64,000 nucleotides of DNA from Lachnospiraceae bacterium (lineage in GTDB: Bacteria; Bacillota; Clostridia; Lachnospirales; Lachnospiraceae): positions 1-64,000 of the forward strand of contig JALERL010000037.1 in NCBI GenBank assembly GCA_022764465.1, read 5' to 3'. The notes under the pieces are model-generated. The model made no database searches. It was not told the DNA's origin and saw only the letters and a program-made list of their open reading frames with translations. The translations under genes and the position numbers were made by a program. Below, in pieces: positions 4,265 to 39,140 of this stretch. How positions within the stretch are numbered: position 1 is the first letter of the stretch; every line of letters begins with the position of its first letter.

Positions 4265-4349
4265 TGCGGAAGATGGGACTTGAACCCACACGCTCGCAAT
4301 GAGCACAAGATCCTTAGTCTTGCTCGTCTGCCAGTTCCGACACTTCCGC
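4265..4349 (-). tRNA. tRNA-Leu (anticodon AAG)
   Basis: GCGGAAG/CTTCCGC acceptor, CAAGA-CTAAGGA-TCTTG anticodon arm, long variable arm GCTC-ATTGC-GAGC, GTGGG-TTCAAGT-CCCAT T-arm. Confidence 0.95.
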
Positions 4350-4526: not shown

Positions 4527-4610
4527 GCAGAAGTGGCGGAATTGGCAGACGCGCAGGCTTCAGGTGCCTGTGGTAGCAATATCGTGTGGGTTCAAGTCCC
4601 ATCTTCTGCA
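4527..4610 (+). tRNA. tRNA-Leu (anticodon CAG)
   Basis: GCAGAAG/CTTCTGC acceptor, CAGGC-TTCAGGT-GCCTG anticodon arm, long variable arm, canonical T-arm. Confidence 0.95.
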
Positions 4611-13048: not shown

Positions 13049-14719
13049 CTAGGATCGACCAGCCTTCATTGCTTTTTTACAATCATACATCAGATTATCC
13101 GCTTCACGGAAAATGTCATCAATCTTTCCCGATTCTCCCTCTGCGACACCGGATGCAACACTATAGACTTTGATATCATTACTGATCTTCATAACATTCT
13201 CACGCATGGTCTTTCTGCATTCTTCAAAGACCGGGCGGCTTACATTTTCTGCAAGTACACAGAATTCATCCCCACCGATCCGGTAACACTTACCAACATC
13301 CCGAAAAGATTCTTCTAATAATTCCGCCGTCTTACAGATGATCTGATCCCCATAGGCATGTCCGAAATTATCATTTGCATGTTTTAAACCATTCATGTCA
13401 GCGACAAGAATGATCACAGGTGTATGCTCCTGCTTCTCGAGTCTTGTCTTTTCCTGTTCATATGCAAAACGGTTGCCCAGATGGGTCATTCCATCGGTAT
13501 AAGCCATTGTCTGCAGGATTTCTTTTTCAAAATCCTCTCTTCTAAGCCTCTTTCCTTCGCGGACAACATCTATTCCGACCTTGAAAATAAACAGACACAG
13601 ACCAAAACGCAGGATATTACCACTGTTTTCCTTATTCACAAATACAAAATATCCAAGCTCCAGAATCGTACTTACGACCAGGATCAGCACTCCGCTATAA
13701 AGCGTCTTCCTCTTCTGCGCTTTTTCAATCTTATGAATGGAAAAGAGTGCTGCAAGCAGACCTAATACCGTCAGGCTCAGATAAACACGGTTCGTCCACT
13801 GTGATTCAAACTGGGAACAGATTCCGGTTGCCGCAAACACAAGCTGAACCAGATTCAATACAATGCCAAGCAGATATAAGACCTTCAGATATATTTTATC
13901 CGAAAACTCCTCATAACTTAACAAAAACCGTACCAGAAGTACCGGCATCAGCCCGTAGGTAAGATAGCTGAGATAGATACCAAGCACCAGATTATTCATA
14001 AACAGTTCTAACACATGACACTCGATGAACATCCATAATCCGGTATCTGCTGCAAAAAGTCCAAGGAACAGCATCTGCCCCGCCTTTTTCCGGTGGATTG
14101 CAAATAATCCATGCACCATATCATAAATACCAATCAGAATCAGGATCAGACTTGGAATCAGCGACCAGACCGCTCTTTCTAAGATCATCGAAATAAAGGA
14201 AGCCTGTGTTCCAAAATACACTCCCGGCAGATAACCGGATACTGCCGCAAGATCATATCCCGGCTGTAATTCAATCGTCAGTGTCTTTCCATCATAATTC
14301 TCACCTAAATGCAGACTCTTCCAGAACGATCCATATCCCATTGGAAATGGCTTTGTAAAAGCTTCTCCGCTGTCGAAGATCAAATCGCCATCCAGATAGA
14401 CTTTCGCACGACTTTGTCTGCTCCGGAACAGAATACTGTCTCCCTTTCCTAAGATCTCCTTATGAAGTACCGTTGTCAGATAGATATTCTCCCTGTCCGG
14501 ATTATCGATCATACCCGGAAGTATTGTCTTTGTCTCCTGATCTCCCCAGCTTACGGTAAAGGTATCTTCCATCTTCTGACACTGATCGATGTGAAAGCCC
14601 TTATAATCAAGTGGTCTGCACAAGCAGGCTGCGATAAACCCGATCAAAAATAAAATCCCAAGCACACCAAATGCCCGGTCTGAATATTTTCTCTTTTTAT
14701 CATCTTTACTTTCCTGCAT
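13049..14719 (-). CDS. GGDEF-domain protein (putative diguanylate cyclase) with 7TM-type sensor region
   Basis: RIGGDEFCVLAE; N-terminal TM, beta-rich extracellular part, about seven TMs; AGGAG upstream of ATG 14719. Confidence 0.85.
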   Translation of the reverse strand: MQESKDDKKRKYSDRAFGVLGILFLIGFIAACLCRPLDYKGFHIDQCQKMEDTFTVSWGDQETKTILPGMIDNPDRENIYLTTVLHKEILGKGDSILFRSRQSRAKVYLDGDLIFDSGEAFTKPFPMGYGSFWKSLHLGENYDGKTLTIELQPGYDLAAVSGYLPGVYFGTQASFISMILERAVWSLIPSLILILIGIYDMVHGLFAIHRKKAGQMLFLGLFAADTGLWMFIECHVLELFMNNLVLGIYLSYLTYGLMPVLLVRFLLSYEEFSDKIYLKVLYLLGIVLNLVQLVFAATGICSQFESQWTNRVYLSLTVLGLLAALFSIHKIEKAQKRKTLYSGVLILVVSTILELGYFVFVNKENSGNILRFGLCLFIFKVGIDVVREGKRLRREDFEKEILQTMAYTDGMTHLGNRFAYEQEKTRLEKQEHTPVIILVADMNGLKHANDNFGHAYGDQIICKTAELLEESFRDVGKCYRIGGDEFCVLAENVSRPVFEECRKTMRENVMKISNDIKVYSVASGVAEGESGKIDDIFREADNLMYDCKKAMKAGRS

Positions 14720-14815
14720 AGGAGTCTCCTTTCCGACTCTCATCTTACCCTTATGTATCTTATTTACGTTTTATATTTTAGCACAATCACTTCCGGGTAC
14801 GCAAGACCACCCTTG

Positions 14816-14840
14816 CAAGTGTCTGCCTGCTTCCTATACA
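14816..14840. repeat. Partial left remnant of hairpin repeat family (copy D)
   Basis: AAGTGTCTGCCTGCTTCCTATACAG resembles copy C (AAAGTGTGCGCTTGATTGCTTGCTTTTCCTATACAG). Confidence 0.45.
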
Positions 14841-15092
14841 GATTCGGGTGTCAAAAGATGTTTTATAAAAATTAAAAGGGCAAAATGCAAAAAAATGTAA
14901 AGCAAACTTTTATTTGCGCTTTTCGCTGCGAGTGAAATCCACTGCTTACGAAAACCACAAGTGAAGCCTCCTCTGAACTTGTATGGTTGTAGTTGGCAGT
15001 TAGTTCACGATGAGCGTTGCAAATGTTTGCGGAACATCTTTTGTGCATTTTGTCAATTACAAAATTTGAAAACATCTTTTGACACCCGAATC
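14841..15092. mobile_element. MITE-like element with 24-bp perfect terminal inverted repeats
   Basis: Left GATTCGGGTGTCAAAAGATGTTTT (14841-14864), right AAAACATCTTTTGACACCCGAATC (15069-15092); TCCTATAC on both flanks; no convincing transposase ORF. Confidence 0.75.
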
Positions 15093-15099
15093 CTATACC

Positions 15100-15145
15100 A
15101 TAAAAAAGCACATGAACCAGTAATCCCGGTCCACATGCTTTTACA
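15100..15145 (-). terminator. Terminator for Na/Pi cotransporter gene
   Basis: AAAGCATGTGGACC...GGTTCATGTGCTTTTTT on minus strand. Confidence 0.65.
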
Positions 15146-15152
15146 TCTCTCT

Positions 15153-16943
15153 TTATTTTTCCTTTTTCTTTGGCTTCCGGTATGCGTTGATATCGTACTT
15201 CTCCTCGTATTCTTCCAGACACCGGATATACTCTTCGTTCTTCATCTCTTTGACACTCTTTAAATACTCATGGGTATCAAAGTCGGCTGCCTCTAACTCG
15301 ATCATTGCAACCGCAACATTCGAACAGTGGGCTGCGATTCGCTCATAGTTCGTAAGCAGATCGTTAAACACGAAGCCCTGCTTCATCTCACATTTGCCGG
15401 CTCTTAACCGGGCGATATGGCGAAGCTTTAATTCATCACAGAGAATACCAATAAGCTCACGCAATGGCTCTACACGTGCTGCTGTACGCAGATCGTCCTC
15501 AATAAAGGCATTGACTGACAGATCAACCACTTCTTTTACGGCTTCTTCCAGTACATTCATCTCGTACTTCGCTTCCTCAGAAAATGTGATCTTCTTCTCG
15601 TTTAATTCCTGTGCAACCTCGGAAATATTGACTGCATGGTCACCCAGACGTTCGAAATCTCCGATCGTATGTAAGAACTTCGATACCTGCTTCGTCTGCG
15701 GCAGCGTCATCTCCCGTCCGGTCAACTGCATCAGATAGGTACCAAGCTTATCCTCGTACTTATCGATCAGATTCTCCTTCTCCTGTACCTTTGCAAATTT
15801 ATCCGCAGAAAAAGAATGTAACAGTCCAAAAGATCTCTGTAAATTCTTTCTTGCCTTTTTTGCCATACCATTCATGGCAAGGTGGCTCTGTGTGATCGCA
15901 AGATCCGGATAAGCCACAAAACGCTCCTCTAACAGATCGAAATCTGCCTGCTCTTCCATATCCTCTTCCGTATCCTTGACCAGCACAAATACCAGCTTCT
16001 CAATAGCATGGATAAATGGAAGCAGTATCAGGATCGTAGCGATTCTAAATACCGAGTTCAATAATGCGATCTTAACCGGACTCATCACCATATCCATAAA
16101 CCGGAAATGTACAAAGGCATTCACCGAATAGAATACGATCGACCAAAACACCATTCCAAATAAATCATTGAGCAGATAGATCAGTGCCGTTCTCTTTCCG
16201 TTCTTATTCGTTCCGATGGAGGAAAGAAGTACCGGACATGCTGCACCGACACCAATACCCATCGTGATCGGCAGTGCCGTAGCAAAAGAAATTGTTCCGG
16301 TTACGGAAAGTGCCTGTAAAATACCAACCGACGCAGATGCGCTCTGTAAAACCGCAGTAAAAAGAATACCTGCGATAATACCTGCAGCCGGATTTTCAAA
16401 CATCGTCAACAGATGTACAAAATGCTGATTATCCTTCAGTGGAGAAACTGCTCCACTCATTGTCTGCATACCGATCATCAGAATCGAAAAACCAAGCATG
16501 ATATCTCCGACATTCCGATAACTTGCTTTCTTGACAAACATTCGGAAAATAATACCGATGATGGCAACAATCGCTGAAATTGTCGCTGTTGAAAGTAACT
16601 GGGCGATTCCACCCTGACCATCAATATAGGACAGACATAAAATCCAACCGGTGATACTGGTTCCGATATTTGCACCCATGATGATACCGATTGCCTGCGC
16701 AACCTTCATCATTCCTGAATTTACAAATCCGACAACCATGACAGATGTCGCTGAAGATGACTGAATGATTGCTGTAACCACTGTACCTAAAAGCACACCC
16801 TTGATCGGAGTATTCGTCAGCTTATACAGAATCAGCTCCAGCTTGTTTCCTGCTGCTTTCTTCAGTCCGTCACCCATCAATGACATTCCGTAAAGGAACA
16901 GGGCAACACCACTAAGCAACGATAAAACCATTGTAATTCCCAT
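15153..16943 (-). CDS. Na/Pi cotransporter family protein with PhoU-like C-terminal region
   Basis: LFLYGMSLMGDGLKKAAGNKLE...TAIIQSSSATSVMVVGFVNSG...TAVLQSASASVGILQAL; PhoU-like helical tail. Confidence 0.92.
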   Translation of the reverse strand: MGITMVLSLLSGVALFLYGMSLMGDGLKKAAGNKLELILYKLTNTPIKGVLLGTVVTAIIQSSSATSVMVVGFVNSGMMKVAQAIGIIMGANIGTSITGWILCLSYIDGQGGIAQLLSTATISAIVAIIGIIFRMFVKKASYRNVGDIMLGFSILMIGMQTMSGAVSPLKDNQHFVHLLTMFENPAAGIIAGILFTAVLQSASASVGILQALSVTGTISFATALPITMGIGVGAACPVLLSSIGTNKNGKRTALIYLLNDLFGMVFWSIVFYSVNAFVHFRFMDMVMSPVKIALLNSVFRIATILILLPFIHAIEKLVFVLVKDTEEDMEEQADFDLLEERFVAYPDLAITQSHLAMNGMAKKARKNLQRSFGLLHSFSADKFAKVQEKENLIDKYEDKLGTYLMQLTGREMTLPQTKQVSKFLHTIGDFERLGDHAVNISEVAQELNEKKITFSEEAKYEMNVLEEAVKEVVDLSVNAFIEDDLRTAARVEPLRELIGILCDELKLRHIARLRAGKCEMKQGFVFNDLLTNYERIAAHCSNVAVAMIELEAADFDTHEYLKSVKEMKNEEYIRCLEEYEEKYDINAYRKPKKKEK

Positions 16944-24939: not shown

Positions 24940-25193
24940 TAAAATATATTTGCCATACGTATAAAAGCTTATGGATTTGTTCCGTATTACGAATCTAACA
25001 TTTTCTAAATGTTCTGTCAGATTCTTTTCTTCTCCAGCAACCACAAAAGACGTGGCGTCCATGCCCCGGCTTTTGTTTGCATCAACATCCCTGTTGCTGC
25101 ATTGCTGGATATTCTACAGAACATTAAGAAAATCTAAGATTCTCCATAGTCACAAATTCATAAGCTTTTATCCTATATGGCATTTATATTTAA
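24940..25193. repeat. Large imperfect inverted repeat (MITE-like or long hairpin)
   Basis: Left ATAAAAGCTTATGGATTTGT...GAATCTAACATTTTCTAAATGTTCTGT versus reverse complement of right ATAAAAGCTTATGAATTTGT...GAATCTTAGATTTTCTTAATGTTCTGT; extends outward through TGCCATA on both sides. Confidence 0.75.
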
Positions 25194-31673: not shown

Positions 31674-31693
31674 GATCTTTTGACACCCGCATC
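31674..31693. repeat. Solitary sequence resembling the terminal inverted repeat of the 14841-15092 element
   Basis: GATCTTTTGACACCCGCATC versus CATCTTTTGACACCCGAATC. Confidence 0.5.
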
Positions 31694-39039: not shown

Positions 39040-39140
39040 TGCACCTGAATGCTCTGTCCTTTTGCCTGAGAGATTGGCAGCTTCCTGCCGTACACCTTCG
39101 GCGCTTCTATTTCAAAGACTCTCCAGAGTTCGACTGGTTC
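39040..39140 (-). ncRNA. Glycine riboswitch (apparently a single aptamer)
   Basis: Minus strand: CTCTGGAGAGTCTTTGAAATAGAAGCGCCGAAGGTGTACGGCAGGAAGCTGCCAATCTCTCAGGCAAAAGGACAGAG. Confidence 0.88.

Follow-up and report, generated by a model that had tools for sequence, protein, structure and literature searches.

Architecture of the element and its locus

The window, by which we mean the whole 64,000-nucleotide stretch of DNA analyzed, carries an element of 252 bp next to a gene of the Na/Pi-cotransporter type (15153-16943, minus strand); Table 1 lists its parts along with other RNA features of the window. The element is bounded by terminal inverted repeats (TIRs) that read GATTCGGGTGTCAAAAGATGTTTT at the left end and the exact reverse complement of this at the right end; a 20-bp end of this kind is expected by chance at only 0.01 occurrences per window. 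The inverted similarity extends inward to give arms of 54 bp that are 80% complementary, and the whole element folds end to end, with z-scores of -11.1 for the plus strand and -9.3 for the minus strand against dinucleotide shuffles. These data bear out the initial annotation of this DNA, which had described a 252-bp unit with perfect 24-bp TIRs and a weaker inverted similarity further inside. Its statement that no transposase lies within the element also holds, as we found no credible ORF in the 252 bp. An ORF called over the element (14872-15222, minus strand) had been regarded there as probably unreal, and we reject it both as a gene and in a coding role: it begins at a GTG codon, crosses the end of the cotransporter-type gene in a different frame, and overlies a core whose conservation is of the base-paired hairpin type. 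Two features had escaped that annotation, namely an imperfect 7-bp direct repeat, CTATACA/CTATACC, immediately outside the TIRs and the multi-copy nature of the core.

Table 1. Coordinates of the element, its parts and neighbors, other RNA features of the window, and core-pair loci elsewhere
Feature	Position	Strand	Basis or remark
Full MITE	14841-15092	+	252 bp; about 40 copies in own genome; end-to-end fold
Left TIR, 24 bp	14841-14864	+	Exact; ends shared by other elements, here and in other genera
Right TIR, 24 bp	15069-15092	-	Exact reverse complement of left TIR
Left variable arm, TIR to core	14865-14878	+	12.3% orthologue divergence, arms and TIRs combined
Right variable arm, core to TIR	15055-15068	+	12.3% orthologue divergence, arms and TIRs combined
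Conserved hairpin core (cargo)	14879-15054	+ (orientation of model R1)	205.7 bits to R1; 2.2% orthologue divergence; covariation across genera
Left copy of probable 7-bp target duplication, CTATACA	14834-14840		6/7 match at locus; exact 7-bp repeats at other copies; empty site at L008
Right copy of probable 7-bp target duplication, CTATACC	15093-15099		Same basis as left copy
Terminator-like hairpin with T run, of upstream gene, adjoining the insertion	15102-15143	-	Read from sequence
Spurious ORF over element	14872-15222	-	GTG start; out-of-frame overlap with real gene
TwoAYGGAY RNA (RF01731), second kind of cargo, without GATTCGGG ends	24984-25148	-	115 bits, gathering 43; flanks checked
Glycine riboswitch aptamer	39044-39136	-	
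tRNA gene	4265-4349	-	
tRNA gene	4527-4610	+	
Divergent core-pair loci, other genera	L222, L247, L269, L284, L291, L293, L306, L321, L323, L324, L329		

Dispersal, insertion and later change

The genome-wide search that had been proposed for the element returned about 40 copies in its own genome (assembled to 2.47 Mb in 121 contigs, 87% complete), and the same ends were also found to bound short hairpins of 58-125 bp without most or all of the interior. A sister species, G005, has a similar copy number; the core occurs in only these two of eight genomes of the genus, with no detectable copy in the other six examined. Thus, the single-copy locus with conserved coding sequence in all relatives that would have refuted the initial annotation was not encountered. 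The copies appear to be dispensable at single loci. It should be noted that these copy counts rest on searches, that the sampled genomes are mostly fragmented assemblies, and that many copies lie at contig ends. A solitary TIR-like sequence, GATGCGGGTGTCAAAAGATC, is present at 31674-31693 (minus strand) of the window and is letter-identical in the sister species (C116:1518-1537), and half-TIRs were seen at or just before apparent coding starts (L037 at about 1042 and L038; in G000, C10:28342 and C18:31340), where the GTG/ATG of the TIR is a possible start codon. A phage or plasmid origin was considered and rejected: the G000 consensus matched nothing in the phage or plasmid collection, the G182 element matched nothing in the plasmid collection, and no viral contig carried the core pattern. 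Two viral contigs contain the TIR, which forms a short inverted pair on one of them; neither has an interior large enough for a transposase.

The ends of the element read GATTCGGGTGTCAAAAG..., and copies in several genera are flanked by exact 7-bp direct repeats (TGTATAG, TAGATTA, CTACTAG and CTATGAT). The comparison of empty sites, also proposed earlier, succeeded at one locus (L008), at which the sister species has a single CTATAAG and the own genome has CTATAAG on both sides of the element; the empty site shows an additional small 8-bp difference to its left. A target duplication of 8-9 bp, which was our first idea, was discarded because copies in other genera indicate 7. The locus in the window cannot serve as an empty site, as the sister species lacks all of 14715-15147 and is therefore uninformative there. 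On its contig C116 (L081) the entire intergenic stretch is missing, including the terminator, the element and the start of the upstream gene, and the two genes nearly abut. Many copies were located at or just past terminator-like hairpins, none of the 25 copies with two callable neighbors in the own genome lies between divergently transcribed genes, and the orientation of the element relative to neighboring genes is neutral. Two further repeats were noticed near copies. A short palindrome, TTTTACTGTATAGGAAATTCC...GGAATTCCTATACAGTAAAA, turns up repeatedly at insertion sites (flanks of L013, L017 and L034 in G000) and may be a favored target or belong to a separate repeat family, and an intergenic repeat (GTGTGCGGCAAGCGCACACT... 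with GATTATGCGATGCATCCGCTCG) adjoins several copies (flanks of L006, L010, L014, L032 and L037; L360 in the sister species).

No TIR pair spanning a transposase was found among the matches listed for the own genome, the genus and 200 family genomes, all searched as incomplete assemblies; a transposase with matching ends, suggested earlier as something to look for, was accordingly not obtained among these matches, nor did TIR pairing reveal an autonomous element there. Taken together, the short TIR-bounded form, the dispersed copies, the 7-bp duplication with its empty site, and the lack of an inner transposase identify the element as a non-autonomous TIR transposon, i.e., a miniature inverted-repeat transposable element (MITE), as the initial annotation had proposed. 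Since no transposase-sized TIR pair was seen among the listed matches, we infer that mobilization occurs in trans; the copy in the window would then be one MITE copy moved by a transposase encoded elsewhere.

The palindrome continues to change once inserted, by inversion in place, by internal deletion to short TIR hairpins, and by correction of one arm from the other. Nine orthologous loci were compared between the own genome and the sister species. The interior is inverted in place at three of the nine loci, L003, L010 and L014, with identities of 173/178, 167/176 and 172/173, respectively, in the inverted alignment, and with flanks more than 90% identical. In either species, full elements have shrunk through internal deletion to hairpins of 58-73 bp (L035 vs. 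L062; L004 vs. the sister species). At L091, a stretch of the left arm matches the right arm in reverse complement, as template switching in palindromes predicts.

Conservation and structure of the core

At the nine orthologous pairs, the core differed at 33 of 1523 positions (2.2%), as compared with 276 of 4662 (5.9%) in the flanking DNA (p = 4e-10) and 74 of 603 (12.3%) in the arms including the TIRs. Similarly, among copies within the genome, blocks of ten columns showed a mean consensus identity of 92-100% in the core and 65-89% in the TIRs and arms, and the core was nearly intact even in copies with barely recognizable TIRs. The core, an imperfect hairpin of about 176 nt, is under strong constraint, and the element clearly exemplifies a MITE in bacteria in which selection apparently acts on the body and not on the ends.

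A covariance model, R1, was built from 35 cores and run against 299 family genomes, giving strong matches in 16 other genera, with best E-values per genome of 1e-25 to 1e-10; these E-values are rough. The structure-conserved family thus spans at least 17 genera of the same bacterial family, which is only partly sampled and whose related genomes are not independent. R1 found no match outside the family in the order- and class-level samples, and the named contigs with the core pattern are labelled Lachnospiraceae, Dorea, Blautia, Lachnotalea, Eubacterium, or just Clostridia/Clostridiaceae. In an alignment fitted to the model, which contains a few reverse-strand self-match rows, double changes were found in all 57 pairs, and 95.8% of the cells could pair, as compared with 63.9% after shuffling and 34-42% for slid structures. 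A model-free alignment gave double changes in 50 of 54 pairs, indicating that the structure of the core is conserved; here 90.8% of the cells were paired, vs. 68.3% after shuffling and 38-45% for slid structures, with the inner helices 93-100% paired. Unpaired motifs are kept while the stems change, namely UUUUA, AUCC opposite UAG, UUAC, UUA opposite UUA, and a tandem GA near the apex. Neither the element nor its relatives in other genera matched any family in Rfam 15; the weak hits to MIR8562 and BSR0709 are far below the gathering scores, reflect long hairpins, and were rejected as assignments. The core is an undescribed hairpin family, absent from Rfam 15.

One possible explanation for the uniformity of the core is that the element is an ordinary MITE whose cargo has no function, the fold being a mere palindrome and the core being kept alike by recent spread, gene conversion and arm-templated correction. 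The last of these is seen directly at L091, conversion among dispersed copies would homogenize centers over ends, and the copies are abundant and seemingly dispensable at single loci. However, the core diverges less than the flanking DNA at the same orthologous loci, and relatives in 16 other genera retain the unpaired motifs while their stems are rewritten, which gene conversion within one genome cannot bring about; we therefore regard this explanation as improbable.

In the model-fitted alignment, G-U pairs exceeded A-C mismatches on the plus strand of the window (174 vs. 38, in 31 vs. 10 columns; p = 0.0015), which suggests that this strand functions in single-stranded form. In other genera most cores are without these TIRs, and 'ACAG...CGTCC', which we considered as the element ends there, is one more internal loop within a longer hairpin. 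The core often occurs there as two copies 53-333 bp apart, and all 11 close pairs are divergent. In one genome (G231, locus L237) the core was seen within a different inverted-repeat vehicle whose arms carry CAATGTCATTAACTTAAGCC, which suggests an independent capture.

A vehicle shared with TwoAYGGAY RNA

TwoAYGGAY RNA (RF01731), an orphan family in Rfam, is carried by elements of about 299-314 bp whose TIRs are identical or almost identical to those described here; it scores 88-120 bits, against a gathering threshold of 43. Such loci were found in the own genome (L187 and L188), in another species of the genus (G007, L371, with an exact duplication CTATGAT), and in G182, G128, G049 and G066. 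In many other TwoAYGGAY copies the ends are eroded or of another kind but the outer arms still pair, and TwoAYGGAY pairs in G092, G015 and G044 have a divergent arrangement like that of the core pairs. As the same TIR vehicle carries TwoAYGGAY elsewhere, vehicle and cargo are shown to be separable. TwoAYGGAY has been catalogued as a probable RNA without a cis-regulatory role (Weinberg et al. 2010, PMC2864571), and the riding of part of it in MITEs offers a reason for its multi-copy state and its lack of ties to particular genes. Binding of CsrA by TwoAYGGAY has been proposed from motif matches (PMC4333381). In the sample of 200 family genomes, CsrA was above the cut-off in 34 of the 35 genomes with TwoAYGGAY, the sole exception being G174, as compared with 74 of the 165 without it (Fisher p = 1.8e-9, without correction for phylogeny). 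This untested proposal thereby gains comparative support, and the partner of TwoAYGGAY is probably CsrA.

These data raise the question of whether the core is itself a divergent TwoAYGGAY, i.e., another CsrA-binding RNA. The two share the TIRs, are alike in length, and both have long paired arms and internal loops of a similar UUA/UUA type; one genome contains both cargoes together with two CsrA-domain matches. Nevertheless, RF01731 gave no match to the element at E-values up to 10, nor to its relatives in other genera, and R1 detected nothing significant in the TwoAYGGAY loci (best E 0.31). The element thus falls below the gathering threshold, and it has no two hairpin loops of the AYGGAY type: the core has one apical hairpin, from whose loop GGA is missing in most copies. 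Furthermore, CsrA was present in only five of the nine genomes with strong matches to the new core in the same sample, vs. 34 of 35 for TwoAYGGAY, suggesting that the core probably has a partner other than CsrA. We consider membership in TwoAYGGAY very unlikely.

The main rival to an RNA function is that the hairpin acts as single-stranded DNA, as a transposase or recombinase substrate of the REP/BIME or attC type, its structure being kept for mobility. The divergence of all close core pairs in other genera, the neutral orientation to genes and the in-place inversions would fit such a role, and the G-U bias does not decide the matter, as G-T pairs are tolerated in folded single-stranded DNA too. 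However, movement within the genus leaves TIRs and a 7-bp duplication, as double-stranded cut-and-paste transposons do, and the sister cargo is classified as an RNA that is found together with an RNA-binding protein. We therefore hold a DNA role to be unlikely, without dismissing it.

We prefer the hypothesis, which we regard as likely, that the element is a MITE vehicle with an exchangeable structured cargo that probably acts as a single strand, RNA being favored. The core would be transcribed, and the folded plus strand of the window would bind a protein; that the cargo is most likely a protein-bound RNA is inferred, as neither a transcript nor a protein partner has been shown. The initial annotation had offered mobilization in trans and a structured RNA as alternatives. 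Both are supported together, with movement in trans remaining an inference and the choice between RNA and single-stranded DNA unsettled. Points against the MITE-cargo reading are that no transposase with these ends was found, that the core is mostly without the TIRs in other genera, and that arm-templated correction, as at L091, can by itself keep the arms complementary. It also counts against this reading that the orientation to genes is neutral and that the core can be inverted in place, so that the element does not depend on read-through transcription of one strand. More tentatively, one TIR vehicle in this family may repeatedly have taken up structured RNAs that bind global regulators, TwoAYGGAY with CsrA and the new hairpin with another RNA-binding protein, a possibility in which we have little confidence at present. 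If true, such elements would seed genomes with dozens of regulator-binding RNAs, as selfish or domesticated sponges. As a MITE the element belongs to a known kind; what is new is a structure-conserved cargo missing from Rfam, together with a vehicle that TwoAYGGAY also uses.

Comparison with known systems

REP/BIME palindromes, with TnpA-REP, resemble the present family as repeated intergenic hairpins near gene ends that often form inverted pairs. REPs are much shorter, have a conserved foot, and show neither TIRs nor a target duplication, whereas the core is about 176 nt long and in this genus has both TIRs and the 7-bp duplication, so that the element does not qualify as a REP/BIME. TwoAYGGAY RNA resembles it in its TIRs, similar length, long stem, UUA/UUA-type internal loops, multi-copy state and divergent pairs, and in outer arms that vary yet stay paired. 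In contrast to TwoAYGGAY, the core is a single apical hairpin mostly without AYGGAY loops, shows no co-occurrence with CsrA, and is unmatched by the TwoAYGGAY model, as TwoAYGGAY is by R1. The Coxiella MITEs QMITE1 and QMITE2, of which there are about 50 copies per genome, also have a long palindromic fold and give rise to sRNAs, part of the element being transcribed as an sRNA in that organism; they are described within one species, have other ends and, as far as the available part of the source goes, are not reported to be conserved in structure across genera (PMC5896051). Transcription of the present element has not been shown. The Neisseria Correia/NEMIS elements similarly have 24-bp TIRs, a target duplication, intergenic positions and a long stem-loop, and RNase III processing of their transcripts has been proposed; unlike the present element, they measure about 107-155 bp, have TA-containing termini and are not reported to possess a conserved core with several loops that has relatives elsewhere among genera (PMC2229807). 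As compared with these QMITE and Neisseria precedents for MITE-derived RNA, it is the cargo conserved in structure across genera that sets the present element apart.
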